Under the pieces are notes generated by a model. That model worked only from the letters and a program-made list of their open reading frames with translations. It was not told the DNA's origin and ran no database searches. A stretch of DNA of 64,000 nt from assembly GCA_019054805.1 (NCBI GenBank), contig JAHQIY010000001.1:5346501-5410500 (forward strand), in the 5' to 3' direction. The stretch is from Brachionus manjavacas. Taxonomy: Eukaryota; Rotifera; Eurotatoria; Ploima; Brachionidae. A program made the translations under genes and the position numbers. Below are positions 2,614-26,153 of the stretch, piece by piece. Within the stretch, counting starts at the first letter, position 1, and the number at the start of each line of letters is the position of its first letter.

Positions 2614-4979
2614 TTGCTCGGCTGTCAGTCTAAAAGGTCCTAGTTCAATTCCACCAGATTTCGTTGATTTATCTACATCGTAATAAAGTATGTTTGTAAG
2701 CATTGTTGCAAAAAGCAGTACAAAACAACATGTTAGTCTATCAATCCTGGTAAAGTTACTAAGTCTTGGCTTAGTAATTAAAGAAAACCAAAGGTGTTCA
2801 TCGCTTATTTTATCTTTGGTTTGTCTTTTTAACAAATATGGCAAATTCTTTAGTTTTTCTTCTCCAGAAACAGGAATATTTTGCTCAATTTGTCCATTGC
2901 TAATATCCAACCATTTTTCACAAATGAAATGATATTTTTCATTTGTTTGTAGATCACTTACAATCACATACTTCAAGTACCATGAAGATGCGGCATCTGT
3001 TTTTCCCGAGTTATCTTGATAAATTCGGCACAACTCTAAAGCGCCTAAATTATTCTCTACGCCTAGTAAAAAACAGTCAACTCCCCCTCTTTTAAATACT
3101 TTGCTATTTGAATTTTTGCCTTCTAGTTTTTTCATTTGACTCTCACCATTTTGTCCATAAAGATTGATGAACACTTTCGAATCAGTTCCAGCATTTTTTC
3201 TGCATCCAGTAAAAATCACCACTTCATAAAAATAATCACGATTTGTTGAAGAGTCACCAACATAATTAACTACTATTTCATCACTATCTTTTCTGTCCAC
3301 ATAAATGCAAATAATTGCAGCAATAGTGTACAAAACTGCGAGTGCAATCACTGTAATGTAGACGGTGATATTTTTTTCAAAGGATGAATTGGCAAATGCA
3401 CTTTCGAAATCGATTTCACTAGGTAAAACTATAAAACCACCTGCAAAGACTGTCAAATGAGAAGAATAGCAATGAGTGTACTCAAAATTAGAATCGATAA
3501 CATCCATTCCATTTGATGACCATTCACCACTTTGCTCCAAATAATAACATCCTAATGAATAGATACGGACAGAAAAAATGCTCAAATTGATTAAGCTAAC
3601 TTTAAGAATGTTAGGAAAACTTGTGAAATTTTTTACACAATAATTGTCAAAAAGTTCAGGATCATCAATTATACTGATACTAAAACCAACGTGGTCATTA
3701 ACCAAGTATGATTTTACTGTGCTTGAATTTATAAAAATTTGATAGAATGTTTCGTGTATTAGCATGTCTGGACAAAGAGGAAAAATCATGTCATATAAAC
3801 GAAATGAAAGACTTGGATTTCGGTTGAATTTTACCATAACTAAAAAGCTTAGTGTTTTATTTTCTGGCTTAATTTGGAAAGTAATTGAAGAATTAGAGTT
3901 GTGTAAATTAATTTTGTAAATGATGGCTTTGACAGTAGGATCAGTGTCATTTGATATGTTGTATTGAATAAATTCTGGTTCATTTTGGACTTTTCGTTTT
4001 ATTTTTATCCTAAAATCTGCATTATTTACCTTTATTTCTTCACTGGTATCGGAATGGTAGGATAAACTAACCAAAGATGAGTTATCTAGATTTAATTTCT
4101 TTCCATTAACACCTTTTAGAATATGAGGAATTGAAAAACTTTGTAAAATTGTTGTCGATTGATTTTGATGGTTATTGGTTAGCTTTAGCTGACCATCTGA
4201 CAAAAATATGTCTTGTTGTTCCAGTTCTTCAGAAAGCAGTCGCAAACTTTTATAATGCATATTAGAAGTCAAAACTTCGGTCTTTTGAGAAATACTTAAA
4301 TGTTTAGAAATTATTTTTAAAAGATTATTTAAAATTTTAAGCATTAAATCGAATATTTGAAAGCATTTTTTAGTATGACAATGGCGAAATAAATTTCCTA
4401 TTGATTCTACAATCCTATCTGAAGCTTGTTTTAGATAATTCAAATTACTGGTTTCAGAATAATTATACAAAGAAATGGAAAGATATTTTAATTTTTGAAT
4501 CAATTCGATTGAATAAGATTCGTAAGTACTTTTGCCTGTGATCAAACCATAAACCATGGTAATTATTTTGATATCACTTAAGTCATTGATATCAAGGTTG
4601 ATCAATGTTTGAATCAAATTTGTTTTAATCAATTCAAAATCACTCTGATTGATGGCAATATCTAAATTTTGAATTGCCGATGAAAATATGATTATCTTTT
4701 GGGAAACTTCAGGAATAGGTAACTTTTTTAGCTGAAAAATTGTTTTATTCTTTATTAAATCGTCAACCATCTGAAGAGTTATGTTTCGTAAAATTTCAGA
4801 ATCTTCAACAACGGTGACAAAATCGGGAATTTCAAAAATTGTAATTGCACCAGAATCATCAATTATTTGTATCACTATATTCAAATTAAATGAATCATTG
4901 ATTAATCCTGGAGGAAGCGTTGTAATAAGAAGACCATTATCATTGTAATTTATAATTCTTGAATCATTTGCCAATTTGA
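2614..4979 (-). CDS. polycystin-1-like gene, exon 12: REJ tail, GPS, TM1, PLAT, TM2
   Basis: This exon of 2366 nt has 789 codons without a stop. The GPS-type segment carries a Cys/Trp pattern (GCYYLEQSGEW, then THCYSSHLTVFAGG); the HLT tripeptide, where the GAIN domain cuts, is intact. One hydrophobic helix (about 3297-3372) is followed by a PLAT/LH2 domain (YFYEVVIFTGCRKNAGTDSK, then VFINLYGQNGE and the WYLKYVIV strand), then SNFTRIDRLTCCFVLLFATM, the typical start of helix 2 in polycystin-1 proteins, and GPFRLTAEQ. The acceptor is TTTTTTTAAG at 4980-4981; codon phase 1 joins exon 11 as YEYF-VKLAND. The exon ends at a canonical donor, so translation past 2614 into VRA-stop is probably intron read-through. 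Confidence 0.85.
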
Positions 4980-7900
4980 CTTAAAAAAATAAAGATTTAA
5001 ATTAATGTACAATACAGCTAGAACTACCGTAAAATTTAAAAAATTGGTATAACATGATTTCGATGGAAATGAGCCTGAGAGTTGCCAAATTTCTAAAAGG
5101 AGTAGGCAAAGTTTTACGTAATTTTTTTCTGTTTTTGCTAATAATATCGAATAATTAGAAAAATTAAGGTGAATTGAGAGAAAAATCATGGATAGACAAT
5201 GAGATTAAACTTTTGAAAAAACATTTTCCAAAAAAAATCATAATTTAAATAACATAATCATGCGAATTTAGTGACATGTTACTAAATCAAATAATGAATT
5301 GTTACTAAAAAATGAGAACTGGTTTTAGAAAAGAGTAATGTTCAATTTTAATGACATGTCTTAAAAAATGAATAAATTTGACACATGTTACAAAAAACAT
5401 CTGACTTTAACATAGTTAAAAAATAAAGTTAATTCAATTCAATTTTTAATAGATTGGACATCAATTGGTCTAAAACAAAAATCATTTTTATCACAAAAAA
5501 GAGAGGTTTTTACCAACCAGAAAGTATTTTGATAGATTCCAATCATGTTGAAGTTGTTGATTCCTTTGGGATCCTAGGGGTGATAGTAGATAATAGATTA
5601 CAATTTACAAGCCTAATTGGTTCCCTCAGACAAGAAATTCATAAAAGACTTTACTCTATCAAAAGACTTTTTTATCTTTCATTTAATGTAAAAATTCAAT
5701 TTTTCAAAACTTTCATTTTGCCGTATTTTGATTACTGTTCAACGTTGTTAATTTATTTCTCAAAAGAATCAATACAAAAATTAGCTAATAGCTACTATCA
5801 ATGTTTATTCAAATTGTTCAGATTCAAATTTAATACTGTATGTTCAAATGATTTTAACTCGTTTAATATTTTTTTAAGTAAATTTAATTTATCTTGTTTC
5901 CAACATAGAATTTTAAAACGTTTTTGTACATTTATTCATGGTATATTTAATAAACCATTAACACCGAAGAACATTCTTAATAAATTCAATTTCAAAAATG
6001 AATTACCTATCAGCTATAATTTAAGATCACTAAATGAACTGATGGTACCGGATAAAGGCAAATTCAATAACTATGGAGAGTTGACACTTAGTTATTTTTT
6101 TTAAATTTATTAATCGATTGATTCTGGATGATCTTTATCTAAATGGAAATTTTTTCAAAATTAGGGTAGATAACAATATAAATTTGATTTTTAATCGTTT
6201 TATTAGTGAATTTGAAAAATTTGATTTGATATACAAAACGTAGTTTATGCAATTTTTTTTTTGATTTTTTATTTTATTTTTTTTCTCTTAATAAATGGGT
6301 TCGATCAGCTCTTAGAAGTAAAGACAATATGTCGTTTGATTGAATTGAAATAATAATTTTCATTTTTTAAAGAATTTTATATAAGCTTTAACAATTGTTA
6401 GTAGTTTTAAAATGTGGTCACTTTTTATTACATGTCACTAAAATTGAATTTTTTTTTTTTTTGAAACAGTGCTCAATTTTGAATCACATGTGACTAAAAT
6501 AGAGTACTCTATTTTAAAGAAATGTCACTCAATTCGGATGATTACGTTAAATGAGGCTCTGTTCTTTTTTGTACTTTTTGTAAATAGTGGTAATTTTAAT
6601 CATTATATTAAAATCTAAATGGGGCCCGGGGGGAGCCCTGGTTTAGGAGTTCGGGTATGCTGGAGGTAAGAAAAATATTTTTAAAACAGATTAAATAAAT
6701 AGTTAAATTTAAAACAGATTTTAAAATAGTGATTAATAAAAACCTTTTTTTTTAATACCATTAAGTCCAAAAATTACAGAAAGTACAAAAAAGAACAGGG
6801 CCAAATAAAATAATTTTCTGATTGAGTACAAAAAGTACAGAAAGGATTTTAACTTTTTAAAATTCTCATTGTCTTTACCATAGAAAAATTGGTAAAGTAA
6901 AGAATGCTAGTTTTACATGATTTTCCGAAATCTAAATAAAATTAGCGCATAAAGTAAAAATCTTTTGATTAAAGAAAATAATCTTTTGTCAATGAAATCA
7001 CTAAAAACTAATATGTTCATAAACTGAATACAATTTTATGATGCTATTTATTTTAAAAAAATAGCTCTGAGATAAAGTTTTTACTTAATGCTATACTTTT
7101 CCATTTTCGATGGAGAATAGTCATCTGTAAAATTTTAATGAAACATAATTAAAACTAAACTTTTTCAAGTACTTTAGTAACTATATTATCAGAGAGAAAG
7201 CAAATTATTTTGCATATTCTACATAATAAATTATATTTTACCCAAAAAAATTTTTAAATTTTAAATAAAAAATTTATAGAATTATTCAGAAAAATTAATA
7301 TTACCAAAATACTCGTATCTTGTAATGTATCCATCAGAATCAAGCCAATCTGAACATTCAATTTTAAAAACAGTATAATATGCTGTTCCATTACGACAGT
7401 CAATTTGACATTTTCCATTATAGGGCTTATGGTTTACTCTCAAATTAATTACTGTTGATCCTGTAACCGTTTGATTGTACTCATTGAAAACAGTGATGTC
7501 AAAATTAACTCTCCAAAAATCAATATGCTCAAATGAATCAAATAGAGTATCAAATAAAGTCAATTCTGTGGTTTCATATCCCTTTGTATATTTACTAATA
7601 GAAAAATTGTCCATAATTTTCCATTGGGAGTCCAATTTATAAAGTATTCGATATCTGTAATCTATCTTTTTGGCATTTTGGCACCCATTTACACATTTGC
7701 TTTCGATTACTAACTGATTAGCTGAGTTAATTCGAAAATATTTATTAAAACGCTTACAAAAACCCGAAATTCGACACCTTTAAAATAAATTAATGTGTCA
7801 AAATGAATGTTCAATATTTCTTGTCCAGAAATATTCTAAAAAAAATTTAGGATACTTTTTTTAAAGGCCAGCTAAAAAAATCTTTATTTTTTATAAATGC

Positions 7901-10900
7901 ATTTTAAATTTATGTGAATTCAAGTCATTTTTCGATTCTTCAAGTAAAAGTTTTAAATATACTCAAAAAACCATCCAAGTCAATTTTATGGTAAATGAGC
8001 CTAACCGGGTGACCTATTTTTTTTATTGCATAAAACGATCCCATTTTGTTCGAAAATTCCAAAAATTGTCACCGAATTGGACCTATTTTTTTGACTCACC
8101 CATTTACCTCCTGCGGTTAATTATGTTAGGGCTAATAGGGATAATTGGTTTAACCGAAATACCCCGAAAACCATATATATTTTGCCCCAAAACTAACCTC
8201 TTTTCCACAATATTCACCGAATTCACCCAATTAGCCCGATAATAATTAAAAAAAGGATTTTAACTGTTATTTTTAAAAATATAAATATTTAAAATATTCT
8301 TTATTATTATTCTTTTAAATATACGCTAAAACATAACTATTTAGAAAAAAATTTAAACGAATTATTAACGAATTCAAAATAAATTTTATGTTTGATTTTT
8401 TTCTAGTTAAAAAGATTATTTAAAAAGATCTTTCTCGGAATGTTGTATAAATTTAAAGCTTGAGTAGTGTTCAATTTTTTTTCAAAAACATCTTTTTTTG
8501 CATTATCAAGATCTTCCATCGAATACTTTTTTTTTTTAACTTTTTTTTGTTTGTTCTGATTCATTTTTATAAAATATTGACGATTATTGATAATACAGAA
8601 TGAATATTTTTATCAAATAAAATCAAATTATTTTTGTAAAAAAAGAAGAAACAAAATTTTAAATTTTTCATAAAAAATGACGTCATTGTGATCGTTTTTG
8701 TCCTTTCAGTCTAATTATGTTAAATATTTTTATTTTTTGGGGTAAATGGGTGGGATTTTTGGGTATTGAGGTGATACCTCATTAACCTCTTAACCCATAA
8801 AAAATAACAACATTAGACAACGAACCCATCGGCTATCTTAAAATTCTAGTAAAATTATTTTCTACTAATTAAGACCCACTGAAAACGATAAGCAATAATA
8901 AATAAGGTCAGTTCAAACTTGTTCCGTCATCGGATCAAAAATTGTCAAACATATTTACTAAATTGAAAAATTCTATCGAATTAGCAGTAAAAAAACTTTG
9001 AATTAAAAAAAAAAAGGTTTAGAAATTTTTTAAAAATATTTCATATGTATATTTGGATTCCTCTCTTCAAGATTTACAAGAATATGTGGGTTGTTAAAAA
9101 ATAAAATAAAACGACTGATATATTTCGGTTTTTCAAATTACGTCACCGAATTTACATTAAATACATTTAGGCTGTGTTACCATATTAGTTTTTTAAAAAA
9201 GTTTTGACCTTGATTTCAAAAGATTTATCTTTGACTTTAAATTTTAAAATTCAAAGAGTGAAAAAAATTAATTCATTTAAAATTTTTCACTCTTTGAAAA
9301 TTATTTTAAAATGTTTTTCGAACTTTGTATCCATTACAAAAAATTAATTTTTTTTTAATAAATGCGCTCAATCATCACAAACTTTTTGTCTTTCTAATTG
9401 AGTTAAAATATTTTTAAATAAATAAACTAGTATGGTATTGAATTTAAAAAAATTAATTTATGAAAAAAAATACCTGGTTGAACCTTCAGGCACCATTGAG
9501 ACATTCAATTTTTGCACCTTTATGAATTGAAAATATCTAATATTTTGGTAGAATGTTTCCATTAAAAAAAGTGAAAAGCTCTTTGGATCGTATGGCCAAC
9601 TTTTAGACTCTATAGTTAAAATTTTAGAATCGTGAAAAAAAATAATCTTTTTTCTGTCCTTTATACATTCATTGAAAATTCTAAAATTTTTTTTAAAATT
9701 AGCCAGGTCTTTACCATGATTAACAATCTGATCAAATCGTTTATCGTTAATGCTAAACTGGTCGTTGAGATGTTTTATATCCATTTTAAAGCAATAAAAA
9801 TTCACATATTCTAAATCATCAATTTTTATTAGGAAATCCATGTCGTAAGCATATTTTATTGTATCAAATTTAAGTCTTTGTTCAGTTCCGATCCTGAAAA
9901 AATCAAGACCATTCTCAAGACTAAATAATGCTATACCTCCTGGAAGTACTTCAACATGTGTTTCTATTGACTTTTCAAATCGACTCAATTTACTGACTAA
10001 ATTTACTTCTAACTCAACGTGAAGTTTGAATAGATACAAACCATAATCAAGAGTGTTGCTTTTTATGACCAAATTGTAAGTATAAACTGTTGGATTGTTG
10101 AACAAATCAAAACTCTTATTTTTTACAGTTTTGTTTGGGAATATTGGAAAAATAGTCCATTTTTTTCTTATTGTATAATCTCTGTCAACATTAAATTTAA
10201 AGTTTGTATGTATGATTATAATATCCGATCGAAAAAATTTTTTTGGATGTGTAATATTTTTAATATCTGTCATATCGATTTCTGGCTCAAAAATAAGGTC
10301 TTAAAGATAAAAAAAAATTTAAGCATTTTAAAATTTTAAAAATTAAAATTAAAAGATTTTTATAAATCAATTAACTCTGCTTGCTAAATTAATATCATAA
10401 GAACTTGAAAAAATTTTAGTCAATAACTTTTTAAAAGCATCATTTAAAATAAAACAAGACTTAGTGATGAAATTTTTTTCGATTTTGGAGTAGAAGTGAT
10501 AAGAAATCCATCTTAAAAAACTACTTATAAGCTATTAATCACTTTTTTACTTTATATTTAATTTTTTATTCTTTTTATTTTGAAATTTTTACTTTATCTA
10601 ATTAATTTCTTCCGGTCTTGTACCCAAACTACCGTTCCATAGGCACCACAAACAATTTTATTATTTATTCATTTTATTTTTTTATTCTTGCAAAAATTAT
10701 TTAACTTTTTTTAACCCTAAAATTTTTATTGTATATTTCTATCAGTGTTTTATCTCATTATGTGCAACGAGCTACCATAGGCGACCTCTCATGTAGGACG
10801 CCTCCGCAAGCTAGTCTTGCTGTGGCTTTTTTATAATAATAATAATAATAATAATTTTCGAATTTGAAATTTTTTTAATTATTTTTTATGCTGAAGGGAG

Positions 10901-13900
10901 AGTCCTCTTTCTTCAAGCAGCAGACCATAGGTCAAATTTTAATTTAAATAAATAAATATCTGAATTTTAAATTTTACTCGTAAAATTGTTAATGTTTAAA
11001 TTTTTTTTAAGTTTTTTAAATCGTTTTGAGTAATAAATTCTAAATTATTGAATATCAATTGTTCTTCATAATCGTTTCATGTTAGAGAAAATAAAACAAC
11101 CTTATTAATCTATAAATCAGTCAAACAAAACTGATTAATAAAATCGGTTAAAATTTAAAACTTATTAAAAAAAGTTAAAAAATGGTTTAAAAAACCCAGT
11201 TTACATAGTTTAAAACCTACTTAATTTTTTAAAAAATTTAAATTGTAATCTTATTTTCAAGCAAAAGAGATAAGAGATAATTTTTACAATTCGAAAAGTT
11301 ATTAAAAAAATTTAAAAAAAGGAGTTTTTTTAGAAAATTATTTAAAAAAAGGGGTTTTTTTAGAATTTGAATTAAAAAAAAATAGTAGGTTTCAAACTTT
11401 AGATATGTTTACCGGTTTTTTGAACCAGTTTTTATTTTCTTGTCGGTTTTGATAACAGGTTTAGTAGAAGAATTCAACAATGTTCACATATTGTAAAGCG
11501 ATGTTATTTTAAAACTTAAAATTATTCTCTCTGCTTAATAAAAATCATTTTTTGATTAAACAATATTGGTAAATTGAGTCAATAAAAAAATATCAATAAA
11601 AATATTTTATTTCTTAAAATACCTTGTGTACAATCGGTTGAGAAGTTTTCGAAAAACTCACTGATTCGTCTTATTTTACAATCATTTAATTCTTCATATA
11701 CATCATTGATTTTGTTTTCATATTTTATTCCGATAATTTTAAAATCTTAAAAAAAATATTTTTAAATCATTGCAAAAAAGATTTAAATTACCTTTTTTAA
11801 ATTTAATATCAATTAAAATATTAATAGAACTATTAGCTAATTTTATTCCAATCTGATAATCATTTTGAATGCTATATGTTTTATTAAAAGTTAATAAATC
11901 CAAGTAATGGTATGTCTCTATTAGAGAAAAGATCAAAAAAGCTTTATTATTTGGCATTTTTGTGAACATTTTTCCATTAAAAATCAAGTCAGATGAAAAA
12001 CTCTCAGTGACTCCAATCTGGGCTGTTTTGTTGGTCATTAACAAGAAACTGCCCTTTTGAATTTTTTCTGGTTTGTCAACGAAAAATTCATTCCATCCTT
12101 TTTTTAAATTTAAATTGAACTTAATTTGTGAGAAATTCAGCGAATCAATGTAAATATTTTCTTCATAAAGTGAACAAGGTTTTAAGGAACCACATTCTCC
12201 ATAAGAAACAAATAACAAATCTATGCTTCCGGGCTCAATTACGTATATTTTGAAGCCAATTAGATAAGATGTGTACTTAAATTCATTATTTGTTAGTAAA
12301 TGGTGATCAGAATCTTGTTGATAAGATGATGATATATTTAAAGTTGGTCCAAAATAATTAATCGATTCCAATTTTGAAGAATTAAAAATGTCAAACTCAC
12401 AGTCACCATACTCCACAAAAACCGAATCAAATTTTGCTTGTGAAATGATAAGCAGTGAACATCTTGCTTCCAAATCTTTTGTATTGCATTTTATATCCAA
12501 ATTCTTGTCTAAAAAAATAACAAATAATTTGAATCATTAGTACAAATTTAAATAATGAAGGGCGTATTTAAAAATAGATGTTAAATCCTTAAAAAAGTAC
12601 AAGAATAATAGCGAGAAAACTGATTGAAAAAAAAGGATTTAAGCCTTGTGAAGACAGGTTGAATTACTCAAATCTTTTGAGTCTTCAAAATCGTCGTAAA
12701 TCTAATAAATTTAAAATGGTTTTAAAAAAGAATTGTTAACAAATAGTATCAATTTCGCTTGAAGTGCAGAAAAGTGAAGCGGGCATGGACAAAGAAGTCT
12801 TCGAAATGATAATAAGTTAAAACTGCAAAAACCTTACTTTTAATAAGGCTAAACAGAAAATCACTCGAGACAAGAAAGATTCCAACGGAGTGAAAAAGAT
12901 CAAATGTATCCTCGATCTGCAAAAAAGGAAGTAAATAAGAGCCTGATAGTTATCGACCTGTATCACTTACGTCAGTAAGTGACTAATGCTTTACCTTCAA
13001 GAGAAAAATTTTCAATTGTAAGCCAGCATGAAAAGATGTGTCACGAGCCTACTCGAAACGCTTAACATGATCACGAGTGAGTTCAAAGTTTTTTTGAATA
13101 CGAGAACTAGCGAGTTGTTCTTGGTGATTGATTTTCTGAATGGTTAGAGGTATTGAGTGGAGTTTCACAAAGATCTCTACTTAGACCCCTGATTCTATAA
13201 ATAAACTCGCTGACTGCGTTTCAAATATAATGGAATTGTATGCAGATGACTCAAAAATACTAGGTATAGTAAATAAAGTTAATGAAAGAGCGATGTTACA
13301 GAAAGATCCATGTATTGTCGATATGAATGTCAATTTCTTATTGCTCATTTTTCTCATTTTGCCTATTTCGTTGTTTTTGACTTATCTGGGTGTCATAATT
13401 TTTTTATTATGAGTGAGCAAAGGCTTGGGACAAATAAGTAAAAAAATAAATTTTCTAAAAAAAAATATATAATATAATAAACGTATAAAGATATAAGCAA
13501 ATAATGTTTTCGTCAAATAAAATTTTAATAAAAATTCTGCTATTTCAATAAAAACACTCTTTTTCTTTAAAACCGATGTAAATTAGAAGCAGGTGCAGCC
13601 AGTCGAGATCCGGGTCACTCACCTATTGACGGTGGCTGTTAATATGACTTACTATGAAAAGAGTTATCATTTTTATACTTTAGGTTAGAGTTCTACACAT
13701 TTAACTCATTTTTTTCATTTTACTCATTTTACTCATTTTGCTCATTTTGCTCATTTTATTCATTTTGCTCTTTTTCCTCATTTTTCTCATTTTATTCGTT
13801 TTACTCATTTTATACATTTTGTTCTTCGTTAGTTTGACTTACCTTCTAAGCTTGGTTTAAAAGTATATAGAAACCATCAGTTGATCTTTGGTGTCAAAAG

Positions 13901-16900
13901 GTTGAAAAAAAATTTTGAAAAATGGTTAAGTCAAGCTAACGAAGAACAAAATGTATAAAATGAGTAAAATGAAAAAAATGAGTTAAATGAGTAGAACTCT
14001 AACCTAAAGTATAAAAATGATAACTCTTTTCATAGTAAGTCATATTAACAGCCGCCGTCAATAGGTGCCTACCAAGTGAAAAGTGCTTGTGCGAAAGTGA
14101 GTAGGTTAATTGGAATGCTAAAGCGAACGTTTACAAGTAGAGAGGAAAGTCTGTCGCTAAAATTGTATGCATCCGTGGTGAGATCCCTCCTAGACTACGC
14201 AGTGCAAGATTGAAATCCAACGGATGTGAATGCGACAGAGAGTGTGCAAGAGAGGGTAAAAAAAATACCTTTGTCTCTATGAAATATGTCGTATGAAATT
14301 AGGTTGGCTAAATTGGGACTGACAAGAGTGAGAGGAAACTTGATTGAAATTTAAAAATAAGTGAACGGATTAGAAAAGGTAGACCAAGTCAAAGATCTTG
14401 TTAATAGATCAGAAAGCAAGGTTCCTGTCGCGGCGTAAAGAGAAAATATCATCAGAGTGCAAATAGAAAGGTTTCCTGCTAAAATTAGAAACGATTTTGG
14501 AACTGCGGTAAACGCCAGACATGCCTTTGTCTCAAACTAGGTAAATCCGCATTGGAATAATTAGCCAGAAAATATGGTGAAATCTAAGTCAGCCGCTGGT
14601 TTCAAAATGGCTTTAGGTAAATTTAATGGAACCGGCTACTATAGCTCCATGCGGTCAAATGGCGGTCATTGGCTCAGACTCTACATGTAAGGCAAGAACT
14701 AGTACTACTACTTATTAATAAAAATATTTTTCAGCTTATATAAAAATAAAAGAGAATGTAAATAGATAAAAAATATGAAAAGATCTTAAGCGATTGAACC
14801 ACAACCAAGCAATTTTATATTTTTTTTCTGAAAGAAATAAATAATCTTTTGTTTCTTTTTTTAAATTTTAATTGTTTCATTGTATTTAATTTCTTGTGAA
14901 TACATTAAAAATGAATATGTTTTTATTATGTTTGATACTTATTATTATTTTTGTTGCTATTAATTAAAAATAATCTTATTTTAAAAATCATTTTTTTTAG
15001 AAATCAATTTTTGTTTTTTATATATATTATACACGTTGTTAATGATAATTTTTGAGCATTACTTTTTAAAAAAATAATTAAAAAAAAATTTAAATAATTT
15101 TTAGTTATGCCTTAGTCATTGTTTTTTATTTAAAATTTTCTTACGATAATTCACTGCATATTTTTGTACATTTGAGTCTAGTTGAAGTTCATAACTGCCA
15201 GGCTGCTGAAAAAATTTTGCTATTTTCAATTTGGATAAGTAAAAACTAGCATCGATTAAACATTTGAACGAAAAATAAGCATTTGTGTATTTATTAGGTT
15301 TTATAAAGTCTCCAGCACTAATGATTAAATCCGATCTGTACCCATCTGAACTGTCATCTATCATTATTTTCGATGTTGATTCAGAATCAATTAAAGCCAT
15401 AGATCCTTTAGGAACTGTCAAAGGTTTGTCTAAAATTATTCTATTAAAACCAAAAGAGACTTTCAAATACCAAACCCCAAGTTGATTTTCCTCACTTAAG
15501 CTCAATGTTTCATTTTGATCCAAAGTGTATAAACACACTATCAATGTTCCAGAATTGTATGTTTCGAATTCGAAGCCAATTAAATTTGCCTGGAATTTGA
15601 ATTCAGTATTTACCAAAAGCAAACTAGAGCCATTTGGATAATACCCTTCAGATTTTGAGGATTTCAAAAAACCAAAACCATTCATCAGCTCGCCATCATT
15701 AGCCAAATCATGAGATGCACACTTGCCAAATTTAAAATTAAATACTTCATTCTTTGTTTGGGATATAAGAAGAATGTGACAATCAAGTCTATTATCATAA
15801 ACTGAATTTTTGCAATTATAATCCGAATATTTTAAATCAACAATTGAAATTTGTTTTGAAATTATTTTAGTTTCATTTTTAATTTTTAAGCTAATTTCAT
15901 ATTGACCTGAATTTTCAAACCTATGATTTAAAGTCAAATAGGACTGATAAAACCTTAGATTTTTTATCGGCTCAATTAAAACTTTGTAATTAATCAAATA
16001 ATCTATTTTTTGGATTTCATATTCTATTGAATTATTTATTTCTTTTTTTGAAACGATTTTTAAATCTGCAAAAAAGGCACTTTCCATTGATTTCAAATGA
16101 AGGGATAAGTTTCTTGTATTCAAAATCGGCAAACAATTTTCAGGTATTAATACCGGCTGGATAAACAATCTATTTTGGTTATTCTGATTTATGTCAAATT
16201 CCCATTCATGTAGTTTAAAAAAATGAATACCATTGTAAAAGTTGTTTAAAATGCTTGACTTTATTGTGATATGTTTGTTAACGCTACATACAATCTTTAA
16301 AATAAAAAAAACTAAATAAATAGAAAGAAAGAAAGAAAATATTTTACAAATTAAAAAAAGAGCCTTAAATTTTAAGATGATATTGACAATTTGTCGAAAT
16401 GGTGAACAGTTGGCTAGAAATAATCAAATTAAGTGCATTTCGGATTGACTATGTCATATTCCGATTGACTTTGATCAAACTTGGTCAAAAGTCAAGTCAA
16501 AATTTTGAATTTTAATTTTTTTTTGTTTGTTGATTTCTTTTTGTAAGAAAATTTGATAAATTTAGATTCAAATTGTTTGGTTTAATTTTTTGTGTTTGAA
16601 TTACAAAATGTTATTACATTAGCTTTTTTCTAAATAGATGAAAAAATTTCAAAATAGGTGAACAATTTTTAGATTAGGTGAACTAATAGTTCATAAAACC
16701 TGAGAACACGAATTATTCCAGTAAAAGGTGAACATAATTTACCTAACCAACTAGACCTATTTTATCTTAAAAAAATTTGACTTAAGTGAAAATTGACTTT
16801 CGTTTGGTGCATTTTAAAAAATACTCAATTCTTGAAAAATGGAAAACAGAGCGTAGATAATTTTTAAAACTTCAAATATTGTCTTAAGGATCATCATATC

Positions 16901-19900
16901 ACAAACCCAAATTTATAAAAATAACAAAACTTAGTTTTTCATTTTTGCAATACTAAATTAAAATTATTTTTTTTTTAAATTGAAAAATATATTTGAAAAA
17001 TCGCACTTTTTCGATGTTATTTCAAAATTGGATACATTTTGTAACTCATACACAAAAAATTAAACCATTTTCATTTACGTTTAAAAAACCATTTTTTTTT
17101 AAATTATTTGTTTTTTCTCAAAATTCTTGAATTTAATGGAATCTTGGGATCAGACTTTTACTTTTGACATGATATATGAACAGAACAGGTTAAAAGTATA
17201 TCATTTCAAAATCATTTTGTTAAAAGTAAATTTTATAAGCGCTAGTGTCCACATCTTTTAAATAAGATTATCAAAAATGGAAAAAATTCAGAAAAAAGCA
17301 ACAAAATTTATTTTAGAGCTTCGAAATCACTATTTTTTTTTCTGTCTAAATTTTTTCAATAAATCTTAAAGTTAAAATAAGCCCAAAAAAAATTAATTTT
17401 ATTAATGAAAAATTAAATTATAAAATTATCTGTTAATTGAAATAAATAGCAGATTTTCTTGATTTTTTAATTTTTAACCAAATTAAGTTTAATGAATTTT
17501 AATTTGATTTTTATTTTAGATTTTTAAATATGAAAACAAAATATTAATCAATGAATCTAATTAGTTAAATCAAATTATTTTCCTTTATTTAAATTTGCAA
17601 CTTCTAGCCTTCTTTATTTTTCATATTTTTTTTAATTAAAAAGAAAAAGTTTGGTGTAGTGGTTTAAATTAAAGAACTTTCGAATCAGGAAATTATGTCA
17701 CCAAAAGTTTTAAATCATAAAGATTATTTCAATTATTTCTCTTGAAATTTTTGATTAAATAGAGTACAATATTTAATAAAAATAAGATTTGTAAAGTTTG
17801 ATTTTTTATAAAAAGAAATCTAATAATTTCTTTTAATAAAATTAATAGAATTTATCTTTATTCACTTTTTATTTAAAGAAAAATTTTAAACAGAAAAAAA
17901 ACTTGCCATTTCTAAATAAACTTAAAAATCCGCCGAATATCTATAAATGAAACCGTAAATTTTACCATAAATTGGACAACGATTTTTATTTTCTTCCGAA
18001 ATAAAAATAACTCTTTTATTTTTTGACATTTTGGTGAATTTTACATATAGTACAAAAAATATTCACATCATATTAAAATTTATATTTTGCATTCAAATAT
18101 ATCTGTCAAATGTCAGATGGTTATCCTTTTTGGATTAGCTCTGGTAGAAGAATTTCTCAAGGATCTGATGATATCCTTATGTTTTTAACCTTTAAACAGA
18201 ACAACATAAATTTTTGTGTAATTTTTGGAAATCAAACAAAACCTAACAAAAGGGCTATTTAATAAAAAAAAGTAAAAGAATCTGAATTGAACATTTTTCT
18301 GAAGCTTCAAGATTCTCTTTTTGGAAAAAGACTGGGAAATTATTTTCTAGATTCATTAAAAAATCAAAATTATTTTCAAAATAAATTTTAATAAAATACC
18401 TCGATTGAGATTTTTCCTTTGTTTGACGACCATATGTCAAAACCGTATAGGACAGTTTCAAATAAGAATTCTGAATTCAGAAGCATAAAAATGCAATCAT
18501 TTAATAATACTATTGAATCATTAGCTTTATTAGATAAATCAATCGATGTAACATTTATTTTTTCATATGAATTATCCCCATAGTTAATCTCCACTTGGTT
18601 AGATTTTGATTCAGATGCAATAAAAAGAGAACAATTCACAGTTTTATCAATCGTGCTCAAACAATGTATATCTCCAACAATTCCTTAAAAAATAAAGATT
18701 TAAACTTTGTAAAAAAATGTACTTGAATACAACTTTCTTCATTGTGTATTATTATAGTTGTAGATTCATTATAGGCTTCAAACTTTGCTGAAAAATTTGT
18801 GATCGATTTTGTTAGTTCATTTTGAAGATAAATAATTTCAGCGAAAAAAAAATCTTTTAAAAACGATTTGAATCTCAAGGCCAATATTTTTTCATAGCTC
18901 AATTTATAAATTTGGTTTCCTTTAACCAAATAATCACTTGAAAGTGACGGTGATGATTGAATTTCTACAGATGCTGGTGGCGATAATTCTATTCCAATTA
19001 TTGAGCCTTTTTTAACATTTTCAAATTGGAAGAGCTCTATTTTATTTAAGCCAACGGTAACATTATAAGTTCCAGCGCTCCGTTGAATAACATCATTGTT
19101 AATAAAATTTGTTTTCATAAAATGTTGAACACAAGATGCTTCACATTCATAAATCTATAAAAAATTTAAGAATCAACAATTTTATAGAAAAAATTTTTTG
19201 ATTAATAAAAAAATTTAATGGTAAATTTTTAACATAAATTTATTCAAAAATTCATTGAAATTTGTCAAAAAATTATCAACTTAATTTAGTTTCCTTTTTC
19301 GTATCATTTATGATGCATCTATATTCACTCGATATAAATTTTACTTTTTGTTTCAAATATCTTAATAGTTTGAAATTTAGCACAGTCTCTAGAAAATGAT
19401 TAATTGGTGTCTGTCAATCATAAAATCATTTGAATCAATATGATTTGCAAAAACAGTTTCAAATTAAAACAGTAAACACTTCGGCAATTTTTTTTTTTTA
19501 AATTAAGATATTATGTTTTATTGAGTATATTTGTTTTATTTAGAAAAAGCGCAAAAGCTTATTCAATGCTTGAAGATTTAAAATCTGTTATTGGTTTTGA
19601 GAGCCTTTTATTTGGATCATACTAAAACACTGATCCCAACTTTTTTTGAAAAGCAAAAATATTTTCAAAAGTTTTAATATATCATTTAGTTTGAATATTT
19701 CTCTATTTTTTGAAAATTAAATTATTTTTTCTCTAAAATTTATATTTTTTGTGAAAATTGAATATTTTTATATTTTTAAAAAAACCTGACCCCCATTTTT
19801 CTTGAAGAGAATTTAACCAGCTTTCTAAAAATGTACCTAGTTTTTTTCCAGGAAGTATAGTTTTCGAGAATTTCAAATGATTTCATAATAATTGAGAAAA

Positions 19901-22543
19901 ATTCAATTTATAATTGTATTATATGATATTTTATGTTTTATTAAAAAAATTTTTAAATTTTTTAACAAAAATTACTATTGATTTATAACAATTAATTTAA
20001 TAAAAAAAATAAAGTCTATGTCTTAAATTTTTAATTACGTAAAAATTTGACTAACTTAAATGAAGCGAAATTTTTTATTTTTACTAATTATTTTTACCAA
20101 CTTTACCTCCTGGAGAAAAACTAGACACATTTTTAGAAAGCTCGTTAAATTCTCTTCAAGAAAAACGGGGGTCAGTTGGGGTCAGTAGGGTGTCAAGTTT
20201 CTTTAAAAGTAGATTATGGTTTTTTCTTTAAAAATAATATTGAAATTAAGAAAACAAACATGACAGTCAAAAAGCTTAAACAGGGGGTCAGGTTTTTAAA
20301 AATATAAAAATATTCAATTTTCACAAAAAATAAAAATTTTGGAAAAAAACTAATTTAATTTTCAAAAAATAGAGAAAATTCAAACTAAATCATACATATT
20401 AAAACTTTTGAAAATATGTTTGCTTTGCAAAAAAAATTGGGGGTCAGTGTTTTAGTAGGACCTTTTTATTTGGTTTCATGTAACCAAATTGAAATTAAAT
20501 TTTAAATTTAGACAAATTTCTGCTTTTAGTAGATAATTTTTTTCCTCTAATTAAAAGTGAAAAGAATGCATAAATTTATGATCCTTTAAATCAATTGTTT
20601 TTACTTGTAGAAATAAATAACAAAAAATAAACTTACTTTTATTTGAATTTCTCCGTAATTTGCTGAAATTATCTCAAATCCAGTCATAATAGAATCAAAT
20701 TTAAACTCAGAATTCATTATTAAAAATTCTTTATCTCGTGAATAAATGGCACTTTCATTCATGTTGAAAAAAATACCAAACCACGAAATTTTAAAAAAAC
20801 TCAAGCTCATATTCTTTATTAAAACATTTTCTTGCATTAAAACAAAATTCTCTCTGCGTCTTGAAAAGAATCTGACCGTACACTCAACAATGGAATTCAA
20901 AACTTGTTCCAAACATAAAAAATCAATGGCATTATCTTAAAAAAAATTAAAAAAATGATTAATATTTGATTAATAAATTTCACATTACATTTTCCTATTG
21001 CAATTTCATGTTTGTTTATCAATTTAGATTTTTCTAATCCAATTTCAATAACATGGTTGCCATAAGTTGGCAATTTATAAGTAAGTTGCTTTAAATTTTG
21101 ATAAAAAATTTGCTCTATCATAACATTAAGACAAAATCTATAATGTAAAGGCATCATCTCTAAATTTTGGTTGACGGCATAATCAATAAAAAATTCGTAT
21201 CGATCATCAATAGAAACAATAGAGCTGCTTTGGTGCATTACAAATATGCTATTTTCGGTAACTAGATATTCTATCGGCAATAATATTTTGTTTAAACCTT
21301 TGCTTAGTTCCAACTCCCACGTGTTTACCAAATTAAATAAGTCAAAAAACATTTTTTCTCCATAAAAACATGATTTTTTTGTTTCACAGTCCATTAAATC
21401 AATCTTAATTTTTCCAGATTGATTGGCAAATATTTCAAATCCATTTATTAGTAAGTCAATCGGACATTTGATTGATAAAAGAATAAATTTTTTATAGATG
21501 GTATCAGAAGGTTGATTTACGGCCAAAAAATCAAAGCCTAAATAATTTACTTTTTTATCTTGAAGAGGAATGCGATCGTAATTAGTAAATAAAACATCAT
21601 TTAAAGTCTGAGAATAAATTAATACATTACATTTTGCAGTATCAAATGATGATAAAGAGCAAAATGAGTACAGCTTACTGTAGTCTGAGATGAATACTGA
21701 CTTCATTAAAGAAGTATTTTGGCTTCTGATTGTTAATTTATACCAACCAGAAAAAGAATAGCGATGATTAAGCAAATAAAAAGTTTCAAATAAATTCAAA
21801 TATGTCAAAATTTTAAAAGAAAATTTTATATTTTCATTTGAATCTAATTTTATTAGTTTATCTTCTCTTATCAAATAATCTGAACGAATTTGGCTCTTTT
21901 TAAGTTCAAGTAAGCCTCCAAGTGTTTGATCTAGAATTATTAGGTTTCCTTTTTTGACGTCAAATGGAGAAATAATATATCTTGAATAACCGAATTGAAG
22001 GTAAATTTTGATAGAATGCAATTCTGTATAATTTTTGAAAAATAGATTGTCTGTAAAATAACTCCCACAAGAAACTGTTTGCCCGCACTCTGCATGGCTT
22101 ATTAACTTAAATATTCTTTAAGTATAATTCAAATAAAAAAACATACTTACATGAATTTGAATATTTCCGGATCTTTTGACTTCAAAATCAAAAGCAAAAG
22201 CTGTTGTATCAACCAAAATTTCTGAATTGATGATCAAAAACTTATTTGAATCATTAAAGTTTTGTTTAAAATTAGAACTTGGTCTTGACTCGGCGTTAGG
22301 TTTTTCAGCTGAAAATTAAGGAATTACGAAATTCCTACAATAAGATTTAAATTTACCCTCTTGATATTCCAGAACATCAGTATCCCCATAATTTACCTCT
22401 ACATAAGACAAATTATATAATGATAAAACTTTTAATGTGCAGTTCAGTTCAAAGTCAATTGATTTGTTTATGTAAGGGCAAACAAGGTCCAAAGTCTGTC
22501 CATGAATCAAATAAAATAAGTTTTGCAAAATAAAAAACAACAT
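2614..22543 (-). CDS. polycystin-1-like receptor (REJ/GPS/PLAT), 12 exons, 3' part outside or missing
   Basis: Exons (minus strand): 22543-22357, 22308-22151, 22105-20989, 20935-20637, 19154-~18731, ~18671-18400, 16294-15145, 12508-11792, 11745-11623, 10299-9474, 7777-7305, 4979-2614. Every junction has GT..AG ends and the phases agree, giving 2704 codons. The start has a signal peptide (MLFFILQNLFYLIHG). Residues about 20-1480 hold six copies of a module I do not recognise; about 1480-1915 is REJ-like; GPS is near 2422 (SSHLTVFAG); membrane helix 1 about 2452-2477; PLAT about 2493-2608; helix 2 about 2660-2680. Polycystin-1 family proteins are large surface receptors that cleave themselves at the GPS and pair with TRPP channels. 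Exon 12 stops at a donor (CAA|GTAAGA); without splicing a stop follows three codons later. The last nine helices usual in the family were not found in the remaining 2.6 kb. No long coiled coil was visible. Confidence 0.8.
5265..6535. repeat. palindromic AGTGACATGT motifs flanking the LINE fragment
   Basis: Left of the LINE fragment: TTTAGTGACATGTTACTAAA (5267-5286), ATGACATGTC (5351-5360) and ACACATGTTA (5381-5390). Right of it, in inverse order and orientation: CATGTCACTAAAATTGAA (6431-6448), CACATGTGACTAAA (6485-6498) and AATGTCACTCAATT (6521-6534). The two sides are approximate inverted repeats, as if one foldback element encloses the LINE remnant. The same motif is clustered at 39941-40310. 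Confidence 0.5.
5454..6250 (+). pseudogene. non-LTR retrotransposon reverse transcriptase, 3' part
   Basis: A 216-codon frame matches the thumb and C-terminal part of LINE reverse transcriptases: INWSKTKIIFITKKRG, VVDSFGILGVIVDN, KRLYSIKRLFYLS, then FFKTFILPYFDYCSTLLIYF. The catalytic fingers and palm are missing. After the T-run at 6094-6103 the protein continues one frame over (FINRLILDDLYLNGNFFKI), so there is one frameshift. It lies in the intron between exons 12 and 11 of the polycystin-like gene, antisense to it, and is flanked by GTGACATGT-type palindromes. Confidence 0.75.
6555..6802. mobile_element. short foldback element (MITE)
   Basis: The left end (6555-6583, starting GGCTCTGTTCTTTTTTGTAC) and the right end (6774-6802) are reverse complements with two mismatches in 29 bp. 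The 248-bp element has a GC-rich core (GGGGCCCGGGGGGAGCCC near 6620) in otherwise AT-rich intron DNA and no coding capacity. I could not settle the target duplication. Confidence 0.6.
7305..7777 (-). CDS. polycystin-1-like gene, exon 11: REJ module
   Basis: The exon begins RCRISGFCKRFNKYF and ends RYEYF. It shows the REJ pattern: a Cys-rich start (ESKCVNGCQ), a Tyr-rich strand, N-Q...GS, VNHKPYNGKCQIDCRNGTA and IECSDWLDSDGYI. Phase 2 at its acceptor fits exon 10 (ACC AG|G) and phase 1 at its donor fits exon 12. REJ regions lie next to the GPS in polycystin-1 and sperm receptor for egg jelly proteins, which is the order here. Confidence 0.8.
7778..9473. other. intron 10 of the polycystin-like gene; no gene seen
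   Basis: No protein-like frame. Around 7980-8250 and 8735-8815 the sequence is less AT-biased and contains CCGAAT/CCCATTTACC-like pieces that may be an eroded repeat. A perfect 16-bp inverted repeat, TTCAAAGAGTGAAAAA, is readable near 9254-9300. Confidence 0.4.
9474..10299 (-). CDS. polycystin-1-like gene, exon 10: start of REJ region
   Basis: The exon runs from DLIFEPEIDM to VPEGSTR with donor CAG|GTATTT. The first half reads like the entry to the REJ region of polycystin-1: WTIFPIFPN, then YTYNLVIKSNTLDYGLYLFK and the conserved loop ETHVEVLPGGIALFS, followed by a GTEQRLKFDTI strand. Phase 1 in, phase 2 out, consistent with both neighbours. Confidence 0.7.
10761..10855 (+). repeat. 3' tail of a dispersed retroelement with (ATA)n end
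   Basis: TGTGCAACGAGCTACCATAG, then GGCGACCTC and CCGCAAGCTAGTCTTGCTGT, ends in a run of ATA repeats. A second copy in the same orientation lies at 48690-48782. A conserved tail closed by a triplet microsatellite is typical of SINE or LINE 3' ends; the body could not be found in either place. Confidence 0.6.
11623..12508 (-). CDS. polycystin-1-like gene, exons 8-9: sixth ectodomain module
   Basis: Exon 8 (12508-11792) and exon 9 (11745-11623) are separated by a 46-bp intron. Module landmarks: EARCSLLIISQAKFDSVFVE, YGDC, NNEFKYTSYLIGFKIY, EPGSIDLLF, YGECGSLKPCSLYEEN, a KKGWNEFFVDKPEKIQKGS strand pair, SSDLIF and ETYHYLDLL. Exon 9 (DFKIIGIKYENKIND, ending STDCTQ) links the array to the REJ part. 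All joints are phase 1. Confidence 0.75.
12740..14720 (+). pseudogene. degenerate non-LTR retrotransposon in polycystin intron 7
   Basis: Several frames together give the landmarks of a LINE reverse transcriptase: SYRPVSLTSVSD (near 12947), RVVLGD and SGVSQRSLLRPL (near 13115-13190), the catalytic box as LYADDSKILG (13234-13263), then after a 0.6-kb interruption KSACAKVSRLIGMLKRTF, LYASVVRSLLDYAVQ and KSAAGFKMALGKFNGT (to about 14625). There are many stops and frameshifts. It ends near CAAGAACTAGTACTACTACT. The box SGVxQxS and the tail resemble the LINE at 58740-59757, so both may belong to one family (Jockey/CR1-like by general appearance). A foldback element is inserted at 13620-14067. Confidence 0.75.
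13620..14067. mobile_element. foldback element with CTCATTTT minisatellite in one arm
   Basis: Both ends carry CACCTATTGACGGTGGCTGT (right end inverted, with GGCGG for GGTGG) and pair over more than 100 bp, including TATGACTTACTATGAAAAGA and CTTTAGGTTAGAGTTCTAC. Deeper in, both arms share CATTTTGTTCTTCGTTAG. The left arm holds about ten extra copies of an 8-9-bp CTCATTTT unit (about 13706-13820) that the right arm lacks. The element splits the LINE between its catalytic box and its thumb region. Confidence 0.7.
15145..16294 (-). CDS. polycystin-1-like gene, exon 7: end of module 4 and whole module 5
   Basis: The exon opens phase 0 at IVCSVNKHITIK, directly after SIE of exon 6, and closes phase 1 at QKYAVNY. 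Module 5 is complete within it: YDNRLDCHILLISQTKNEV, FKFGKC, LLVNTEFKFQANLIGFEFE, NSGTLIVCLY, a WYLKVSFGFNRIILDKPLTV strand pair with PKGSMAL, YRSDLIISAGDFIK and QPGSYELQL. The 350-codon frame that starts at 16168 is the inner part of this exon; the acceptor TTTAAAG at 16295-16296 restores the true start. Confidence 0.75.
16579..17066. mobile_element. non-autonomous TIR element, copy A (polycystin intron 6)
   Basis: The left end GGTTTAATTTTTTGTGTTTG and the right end (inverse of the same, with GTATG for GTTTG) form terminal repeats that extend through ACAAAATGT..TCCAA and the GTGCGAT segment. Internal blocks (TTCATAAAACCTGAGAACA, CTTAAGGATCATCATATCAC) recur in inverse orientation in the copy at 37128-37887. 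A related end is at 29198. No coding frame remains. Confidence 0.65.
18400..19154 (-). CDS. polycystin-1-like gene, exons 5-6: modules 3 (end) and 4 (start)
   Basis: Exon 5 starts phase 0 at IYECEASCVQHFM after QIK of exon 4 and contains VGLNKIELFQFENVKKGSII and SSDYLVKGN. Exon 6 reads CLSTIDKTVNCSLFIASES, VEINYGDN, LLNSEFLFETVLYGFDIW and NKGKISIE. The joint is ambiguous: 18731|18671 (AGTT|GTATTC to GGAG|ATATAC) or 18734|18683 both give phase 1, while the stronger-looking CAA|GTACAT at 18723 would lead to a stop. Confidence 0.65.
19615..20462. mobile_element. foldback element in polycystin intron 4
   Basis: The outer ends read ACTAAAACACTGATCCC (from 19621) and GGGGGTCAGTGTTTTAGT (to about 20457). 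Arms pair over about 250 bp with indels: CTGACCCCCATTTTTCTTGA (19788) has counterparts near 20160 and 20284, and AGAATTTAACCAGCTTTCTA pairs with TAGAAAGCTCGTTAAATTCT. The right arm has an additional block of about 100 bp. CCTTTTATTTGG left (19604) and CCTTTTTATTTGG right (20461) may be the target duplication. Confidence 0.6.
20637..20935 (-). CDS. polycystin-1-like gene, exon 4: start of module 3
   Basis: The exon begins at 20935 after TTTTTTTAAG and reads YNAIDFLCLEQVLNSIVECT, then LIMNSEFKFDSIMTGFEII and NYGEIQIK, ending at AAA|GTAAGT. The usual YGD strand is poorly kept, so this is the most diverged copy of the module. Phase 1 in, phase 0 out. Confidence 0.7.
20989..22105 (-). CDS. polycystin-1-like gene, exon 3: module 1 (end) and module 2
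   Basis: The acceptor ATATTTAAG at 22106-22107 gives LISHAECGQTVSCGSYFTDN in phase 0 after exon 2. Module 1 closes with DVKKGNLIIL, IRSDYLIREDKLIK and HRYSFSGWYKLTI. Module 2 follows inside the same exon: SFDTAKCNVLIYSQTLNDV, INGFEIFANQSGKIKIDL, ETKKSCFYGEKMF, WELELSKGLNKILLPIEYLV, YRFCLNVMIEQIFYQNL and GNHVIEIGL. The donor is AAAAT|GTAATG at 20988. Confidence 0.75.
22151..22543 (-). CDS. polycystin-1-like gene, exons 1-2: signal peptide and start of module 1
   Basis: Exon 1 (22543-22357) has the ATG, a hydrophobic signal peptide with likely cleavage after HG (MLFFILQNLFYLIHG) and LNCTLKVLSLYNLSYVEVNY-GD. The donor is GAGG|GTAAAT. Exon 2 (22308-22151) reads EKPNAESRPSSNFKQ, KFLIINSEILVDTTAFAFDF, RSGNIQIH and ends CAT|GTAAGT. 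Phase 1 between them; the intron is 48 bp. The signal peptide is the main reason to start the gene here and not at the PAN/LamG exons upstream. Confidence 0.75.
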
Positions 22544-23789: not shown

Positions 23790-24752
23790 TTAAATAACTT
23801 CATTCATTAGGTCTAAAATTTGCTCTTCATTTAAATTTTCCATATAAATTTTTATATCATCGACAATTAATTCTCCACCATTATCATTTATGTCTGAACT
23901 TTTTCCAATAAAGTTTACTTTTCTAAAGATTGCTTGAGGGCTAAAAGCAAATTGTTTGCTTGACACTAAAGTTCCATTCAAATAAATGCTTGCTTTTTGT
24001 TGCGAGTCAAAAATAAGTCCAAAATGATGCCATACGCCGATTGAAAGACTATCAGGCAAAAACAAAACATCTTTTTTAAATGGTGCTAACCTATTCGTTT
24101 GGTCTGATAAAGATAAAAAAGATCTTGAATCTGAAATTCGGGTCAAACCAAATTTTACTAAGTCTCCAAATTCACCATTGCCAAACTCGAATAGTGTCAA
24201 TTTTGAAGAGAAATTAATTATTTTTAGCCAAACTAGACAAGAAAATTTTGGATAAAAATAAAATCCTTCAGCAACTTTAAAGTAGCCATAATTCAATTGC
24301 ATTGCAGAATTGGGTTTTCCATTGCGATCCGGTACAAAAAATGCATTAACCGGTTCAATTTCTATGTTGTTTACTATATCTCGTGTAAGAGAATCAGAAA
24401 AAATCCAATGCACGATCAGACCATCAATACTAAAAAAATATCAATTTTAATTCAGAAATTATTTTAGGATTAAAAATTACTTCAAAAATTTAAATCGCTG
24501 GTATACAGTTACTGATAGTGAATCTGCAAAATCAATTTGACCATAAGGGGAATATAAATAGCAAATTTGGTTTAAATATTTTGTAAATCGGCAATAACTT
24601 CTACTTGAACACTTAAAAAGACAATTAATTCGGCTTGATGATTCGAATTTTTCAACTAAATTATCTTCTGAAACATATTTGCTTAATATTCGAAATTCTG
24701 TTGCCCAATAAATTTTAAAAATTAAAAATGTAATAAATATTTTCAAAATCAT
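23790..24752 (-). CDS. secreted PAN/LamG-like two-domain protein
   Basis: Two exons, 24752-24481 and 24429-23790, join in phase 2 (TTG AA|GTAATT to TTTTTTTAG|T), giving 303 aa with a 51-bp intron. The start MILKIFITFLIFKIYW is a signal peptide. Residues about 35-85 have a Cys pattern like a PAN/Apple domain (INCLFKCSSRSYCRFTKY, then QICYLYS). The rest is a LamG/concanavalin-A-like jelly-roll: LIVHWIFSDSLTRDIVN, FSCLVWLKI, LSIGVWHHFGLIFDSQQ, ASIYLNGTLVSSK and the final GGELIVDDIKIYMENL strand, which is the typical end of LamG_3-type domains. Such proteins are extracellular binding modules; the ligand is unknown. It runs parallel to the polycystin-like gene 1.25 kb downstream but ends in its own stop (GAAGTTATTTAA). 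Confidence 0.75.
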
Positions 24753-26153
24753 TTTTTGTTATAAATTATTTAGAAGAAAAATATGTAAAGTATATTTTTT
24801 ATTAGACATATTTTAATTGTTTGACAATATCTGAATCTAAATTTGTGTTAGATATTTTTTGAAAACGATCTAAAAATAATATTGATTAAATATGTTATTT
24901 TTTTTAGTTTTAAATTTCTTTAGTTAAAAACTTCTGCTTAAAAGTATATCAGGCTGCCAATTATTTTTAAAAAAATAAAAAAATTTTTCTTGAAAAAAAA
25001 TTACAAAAATTCGGTTCTAAGGGAAAATCTTTTTTAACATAAATAAAGTTTAATTTATTTCATCATTTTTTGTTCAAAAATATAAATACTTAGTGGAAGT
25101 AGTAATGTTAAATTAAACTGCGATCCTGACTAGCGAAAGTCTAATGAAAGGACCCCATGGCAGCGCCTTTAACTAAAATTTTACATTGAAGGCTTTCACA
25201 ACTAATAAAATATTCAATTTAAAAAAAAAATTAAATTATTACTTAGCGTACTCCTTTTCAAATAGATGCTGTTTTTGCGGAAATGTGAAAACTTGCTACA
25301 GAATTACAGTAAAAAAGTAAAATAAAAATTATTAAAAATTTTAATTGAAATTTTTTTGTTGCATTTAGATGTACAAATTAAAAAAAAATCTAAAGATATT
25401 TAAAAAAAATATGAAATTGAGTTTATCTTTTTTGAGATTTAAATTTTTGATTTTTTTTTTAAACAAATGAACTAAGCTGTCACATTGCCGTTTTTGCTAA
25501 TTTTATTGATTCTATTGATTTAATGATGATCCTAATCAAGTAAATTATAAAATATTTAAGCATGGTTTATGCCCCAATAAAGAATGTTAATGCTATAGTT
25601 TTGTGTATATTGAGAATTTTTTTCAGTGTTGTGTTAAATAAAATTCAATTTAATAATTTTTGATTTCAATTTAATAATATTATACTTGGTTTAATTTTTT
25701 TGTATTTGAATTGAAAAATGTATCCACTGTTGAATCAAAATGAATTCATTTAATTCTAAATTTTGCTTTCATCTGGTTTAAAATATTTGATTTTGTGATA
25801 GAATACGAAGCAGACTGAAGGTTTTATAAAAAAAATTAAAAAATTTGATAATATTGGGTTTAATTAAGCTTTTATTCTTTTAAAATTTTTTTAAATATTA
25901 TTAATATCGGAAAATTTGAAATTATTTTTTCACCAATTTTTTTGAAAAAAAAATCTAAAATTAAAACTTAAAAATAAATTTTCTATTAATTTTTTTTCTC
26001 ACTAATTACTGATATTTATATTCAATAAATAATATATATTTATATTTTATTTTGGAAAATTACACTAAATATCTTAAGGCATACACAATATTTAAATTTT
26101 TAAATTTTACAATTTTTAATAAAAAAAAGTTGAAATAAGCAAAAAAATTCAGG
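24753..26153. other. intergenic region
   Basis: AT-rich, no protein-like frame. One less AT-rich patch (25116-25170, CTGACTAGCGAAAGTC and GACCCCATGGCAGCGCC) may be a retroelement remnant. A piece related to the TIR family at 16579 (TTGGTTTAATTTTTTTGTAT) is at about 25687-25735. Confidence 0.4.

Follow-up and report, generated by a model that had tools for sequence, protein, structure and literature searches.

The DNA analysed here, referred to as the window, is a 64,000-nucleotide stretch of the genome of the rotifer Brachionus manjavacas (contig JAHQIY010000001.1, positions 5,346,501 to 5,410,500). On its minus strand lies a gene that, judged by its conserved domains, encodes a polycystin-1-like membrane protein with six tandem modules between a short leader and the REJ region. 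We reconstructed ten exons from 22543 to 9474, which are joined at GT/AG sites into a single stop-free open frame of 1754 codons. The order of domains in the gene is six modules, REJ, GPS, PLAT and PKD_channel (Table 1). The PLAT domain scores 75.3 bits against PF01477 (cut-off 23), while the PKD_channel domain (PF08016, 101.4 bits, cut-off 22.4) is encoded outside the window by an exon at C1:5343280-5343945. The GPS match (PF01825) reaches 21.5 bits, just below its cut-off of 22.5, and its HLT triplet appears intact. With REJ, PLAT and PKD_channel all above cut-off, the polycystin-1-like identity proposed in the initial annotation is borne out. No leucine-rich repeat (LRR), C-type lectin or PKD domain exceeded its curated Pfam cut-off in the exons and modules scanned, a set that leaves out the linker exon (11745-11623), and no WSC match passed its cut-off there either. 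The modules had been said to replace LRR, C-type lectin and PKD repeats; the scan agrees with this, except that the outer sandwich of the module looks PKD-type, so that PKD domains seem modified more than replaced.

Table 1. Features of the polycystin-1-like gene (window coordinates)
Feature	Position	Strand	Remarks
Polycystin-1-like gene	exons 22543 to 2614	-	channel exon beyond the window
Exon 1	22357..22543	-	ATG and short hydrophobic leader (by eye), then start of module 1 (TLDLVC.. at 22495)
Module 1	21683..22495	-	pieces 22495-22357, 22308-22151, 22087-21683; third acceptor uncertain by a few bases
Module 2	20989..21682	-	inside one exon
Module 3	18676..20935	-	20935-20637, 19154-18734, 18683-18676; weak donor (GTTGTA) after 18734
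Module 4	15836..18675	-	18675-18400, 16294-15836
Module 5	15146..15835	-	inside one exon; copy modelled with AlphaFold2
Module 5, N-terminal part of the putative split PKD-type domain	15704..15835	-	profile columns 1-43
Module 5, inserted part with predicted jelly-roll-like domain	15239..15703	-	profile and model
Module 5, closing strands of the putative split PKD-type domain	15146..15238	-	profile and model
Module 6	11792..12508	-	inside one exon
Linker exon, 3' of module 6	11623..11745	-	exon reconstruction
REJ region, start	9474..10299	-	PF02010 E=0.007, 15.4 bits, below cut-off of 25
REJ exon	7305..7777	-	PF02010 51.2 bits, cut-off 25
Exon with GPS (HLT at 3459), hydrophobic segment (by eye) and PLAT (2902-3228)	2614..4979	-	

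The six modules are 230-245 amino acids long and together span 22495 to 11792. Each was searched with a profile built from the other five, which gave expectation values (E) of 2.9e-17 to 1.9e-29. The best value among shuffled sequences was 0.017 (2000 shuffles per copy in six tests), and the six repeats, first recognised from the letters alone, are therefore real. The interval originally assigned to them, 10300..22543, is too wide at its lower end, since 11745-10300 holds the linker exon and the start of REJ. Likewise, the motif list given for the modules applies only in part: all six share the first Cys pair and the ‘SDLI’ Asp, but in the alignment, inspected by eye, exact ‘YGD’ and ‘KGS’ each occur in three copies, a complete ‘SDLI’ in two and the second Cys pair in four. 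No Pfam family spans a whole module, whether the six modules or the insert-deleted forms described below are scanned, and the pattern was rightly called unnamed as far as the complete unit is concerned, though not for its apparently PKD-type outer part. Below threshold, the scan of the six gave a Lipoprotein_16 match (E=0.12) and, in module 4, a PKD_4 match lying on the closing strands (E=0.24, or 0.034 when the longer exon of this module is scanned). PDB sequence searches with the modules and with their insert-deleted forms each gave just two chance-level rows, and the titles and abstract openings of the open-access literature searched contain no account of the module.

We propose, with a probability of about two in three, that the module is a PKD-type β-sandwich opened between its ‘YGD’ and ‘Y...G.Y.I.I...N’ strands, with a jelly-roll-like domain in the gap, and that six such units precede REJ, GPS, PLAT and the channel. 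The closing strands keep a regular spacing (Y, G at +4, Y at +6, hydrophobic residues at +8 and +10, N at +14), each position being retained in 21 to 38 of 43 rows. In the ‘I.IDYGD’ strand, Gly37 is found in 16 and Asp or Asn38 in 25 of 41 rows. We take this spacing and this strand to recall the two signatures of PKD domains, and in one copy of the C6 gene, one of the related genes described below, both signatures (‘DFGDGT’ and ‘HHYFEYGSYNITL’) are nearly perfect. A PKD domain continuous over about 80-90 residues was not found in the 16 copies measured: the signature parts lie 155-177 residues apart, and for this reason we speak of a PKD-type domain with an insert and not of an ordinary PKD domain.

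The split was examined by cutting the insert from natural modules and scanning the remainder with Pfam. A C6 module that had scored 20.0 bits in two stretches then scored 25.3 bits in one (PF00801, cut-off 23.5), and a module of the C12 gene went from no match to PKD_4 at E=4.4e-4. For module 4, the PKD_4 value improved from 0.24 to 0.0021 or 5.7e-5 depending on the cut chosen, which remains below the Pfam cut-off. Among 16 insert-deleted modules, with E up to 10 admitted, three matched PF00801 and three PKD_4 (PF18911), with a best value of 1.6e-5; the same modules with a reversed N part gave two and one such matches, with a best value of 0.033. On its own, the sequence evidence speaks for a split PKD domain, though not overwhelmingly.

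The predicted structure of a single copy points in the same direction. In a template-free AlphaFold2 model of module 5, both ends together match FN3-type sandwiches as one domain of about 80 residues, while the middle (residues about 57-197) matches jelly rolls in structure comparison. Each copy had initially been pictured as two linked β-sandwiches, and prediction of the fold of one copy had been suggested as a check. Two sandwich-like parts are indeed present in the model; they are most likely nested, however, and not arranged in series.

The module is not confined to the window gene. We searched the 114-Mb, AT-rich genome with module 6, module 5 and a family consensus and found four further clusters, on C12, C6, C8 and at C3:4.04 Mb, each with PLAT and PKD_channel matches nearby on the same strand. 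At least 46 copies covering the second half of the insert are distributed over these five genes (6 in the window gene, 15 in C12, 14 in C6, 6 in C3 and 5 in C8). This count is a lower bound from the stretches examined, and more matches exist, for example at C12:1382503, C6:667163, C3:4040339 and C8:5108013. Asp184 of the profile is invariant (46/46) and Gly144 nearly so (43/46), and Glu82 and Gly91 are each kept in 39 of 43 copies. Cys 6 and Cys 19 are both present in 36 of 39 copies and both missing in the other three; for Cys 112 and Cys 118 the corresponding numbers are 33 and 8 of 46, with five copies retaining only one of the two. Exon boundaries fall repeatedly close to profile columns 48-50 and 107. 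A sixth cluster at C3:5301867-5311785 on the minus strand comprises seven module matches, four with internal stops, and no PLAT or PKD_channel match lies nearby among the genome matches listed; it is perhaps a decayed or channel-less relative. Half of the PLAT matches listed (25 of 50) form a dense run at C5:3135393-3155608 on the minus strand, apparently one or a few PLAT-repeat genes.

Single copies also occur ahead of ordinary PKD domains. Three other polycystin-like loci (C5) carry PF00801 matches, five in all. At one of them, a frame with a WSC domain (45.4 bits, cut-off 27.8) is followed by a short frame of no assigned family and then by a frame in which a Cys pair and a ‘V.INYNNG’ strand are recognisable by eye; the subsequent long frame starts with the insert (profile positions 49-212, E=3e-17) and continues into PKD domains. 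At the L069 locus, the three pieces stand in the same order ahead of PKD domains, as judged from a weak match (E=4e-4) and visual similarity; this copy is in neither listing of the whole-genome module searches. The third locus shows the end of the insert (E=5.4e-11), with ‘SVSHQYTVQNNYSVSVTLTN’ next and PKD-like sequence after it. For the single copies at C5:5162516 and L069, the N part was identified solely by eye. Since one copy stands directly before PKD domains in these other polycystin loci, this is probably the older arrangement.

Several results weigh against the nested PKD-type module. Just one of the 16 insert-deleted copies exceeds the Pfam PKD cut-off, no Pfam PKD match was obtained for module 1, module 6 or the WSC-locus copy once the insert was deleted, and the insert-deleted consensus reaches only E=0.31 against PKD. 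A scrambled control attained E=0.0082, to an unrelated family. HHalign against the PKD domains of the genome aligned the closing strands only, and in profile-profile comparison random pairs of pieces that retained these strands scored nearly as high. Confidence in the module 5 model is modest and low for the outer parts, and the structure list names FN3-type domains rather than PKD domains. The data presented here support nesting, and an outer sandwich of PKD type, without proving either.

Three other readings were considered. The first, two separate sandwiches in series with a small N-terminal and a larger C-terminal domain, would also give each copy its two structural units; it would suit the low confidence of the outer parts of the model, and the N part alone indeed gives no PKD match. 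We nevertheless consider it unlikely, because the FN3-type rows require both ends of the model within one domain, and because joining the ends raises the PKD scores, with the N part performing better forward than reversed. Even less credence is given to a wholly new two-part domain whose likeness to PKD reflects convergence on a common β pattern. Most copies do stay under the PKD cut-offs, and the FN3-type names in the structure list would fit such an origin, but the C6 copy with its near-perfect signatures exceeds the cut-off and single copies directly precede PKD domains. Highly improbable, finally, is an offset pairing in which each N part is completed by the closing strands of the preceding module and PKD domains alternate with jelly rolls along the chain: although sequence alone cannot tell which neighbours pair, the two-module AlphaFold2 model made for this case is too poor to judge (mean predicted local distance difference test score 45.0) and the pieces in swapped order likewise give a PKD score, owing to the closing strands (probability 20.7 versus 48.4), single copies elsewhere seem to possess their own N part and closing strands (partly by eye), and the FN3-type rows on the single-module model take both of its own ends.

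The history of the array was traced in a midpoint-rooted tree of the C-terminal parts of 45 of the 46 copies; the C8 copy at 5103773 was omitted because of its short length. A single clade unites the last modules of the five genes (printed support 0.93). The first modules of four genes cluster with the window gene's module 4 (0.83, inner nodes weak), and the first C8 module examined groups with second modules. The tree accommodates position class with 7 changes, where shuffles average 17.7 and none of 1000 is as low, whereas for gene of origin it needs 29, where shuffles average 24.9 and six of 1000 are as high. Copies group by position in the array and not by gene; most of the gene duplications therefore took place after the array had formed, and its modules have retained individual identities. 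Based on nearest relatives, the order of modules agrees with that of the C12 gene for C6 (rho 0.95, p 1.5e-7, 14 modules) and C8 (rho 1.0, 4 modules), with lower values for C3 (rho 0.77, p 0.07, 6 modules) and the window gene (rho 0.47, p 0.35, 6 modules). For the window gene, the age of the array rests mainly on its last module.

In the intron between modules 5 and 6, a long fold-back (inverted repeat) element was seen by eye at 13620-14060; the module 3 intron holds a similar inverted-repeat pair near 19640-20480, also seen by eye. Fragments at 5433-6104 and 40-486, both on the plus strand and in introns of the polycystin gene, resemble a reverse transcriptase and a DNA-transposon transposase, respectively. 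Directly upstream, 23790-24758 on the minus strand is a small separate gene with a leader, a Cys-rich piece and its own stop codon, part of which we take to resemble a laminin-G-type domain. That the laminin-G-like open reading frame at 23790-24440 could be the N-terminus of the polycystin gene was ruled out, since it closes with its own stop. Long open reading frames at 26154-28032 (minus strand) resemble an SLC6-type transporter.

The ectodomain of polycystin-1 is thought to sense ligands and force, a function that fails in polycystic kidney disease. In the protein encoded in the window, the PKD-type sandwiches could form an extensible rod from which the inserted jelly rolls face sideways as binding heads. 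Such a rod with heads would make a multivalent receptor, in which ligand binding or pulling force may be relayed via REJ and GPS to the channel, a mode of action also assumed for other polycystins. PKD repeats are described as mechanical elements in PMC3677617 and PMC1934368, and according to PMC7728438, mammalian polycystin-1 has an N-terminal fragment that activates the channel through its C-type lectin domain. In the rotifer protein, a row of lectin-like heads could stand in for that domain. If the nested reading is true, a tandem PKD-type repeat with a built-in jelly roll would join ligand-binding and mechanical roles in one unit. More tentatively, the polycystins of this lineage may have turned the PKD repeat into a scaffold for a lectin-like head, with at least 15 heads per molecule in the C12 gene, and so have arrived at a ligand-gated channel that is multivalent and has no C-type lectin; the copy standing singly before ordinary PKD domains would then be ancestral and may sit unrecognised in polycystin-1 of other animals. 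The family profile of 247 columns built here makes the presence of the module in other animals directly testable.

What was first seen as an unrecognised module of two linked sandwiches is most likely a tandem PKD-type domain with an inserted jelly roll. The module shares with the PKD domain (PF00801/PF18911) a split signature of the same spacing, for which we used what we take to be the usual PKD spacing, and one insert-deleted copy exceeds the PKD cut-off; an ordinary PKD domain, however, is continuous where the module is interrupted. The insert resembles in its predicted fold the jelly rolls of the Cwp84 lectin-like domain and the MYCBP2 PHR domains but is only 12-15% identical to them in the matched rows, and Pfam and PDB sequence searches gave no sequence family in common with known jelly-roll domains. 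Sea urchin SpREJ and the polycystin-1/PKD1-REJ family, as far as described in PMC1934368, share with the window gene the order REJ, GPS, PLAT and PKD_channel, but where their ectodomains carry C-type lectin, WSC and PKD repeats, the rotifer protein appears to carry six nested modules instead.
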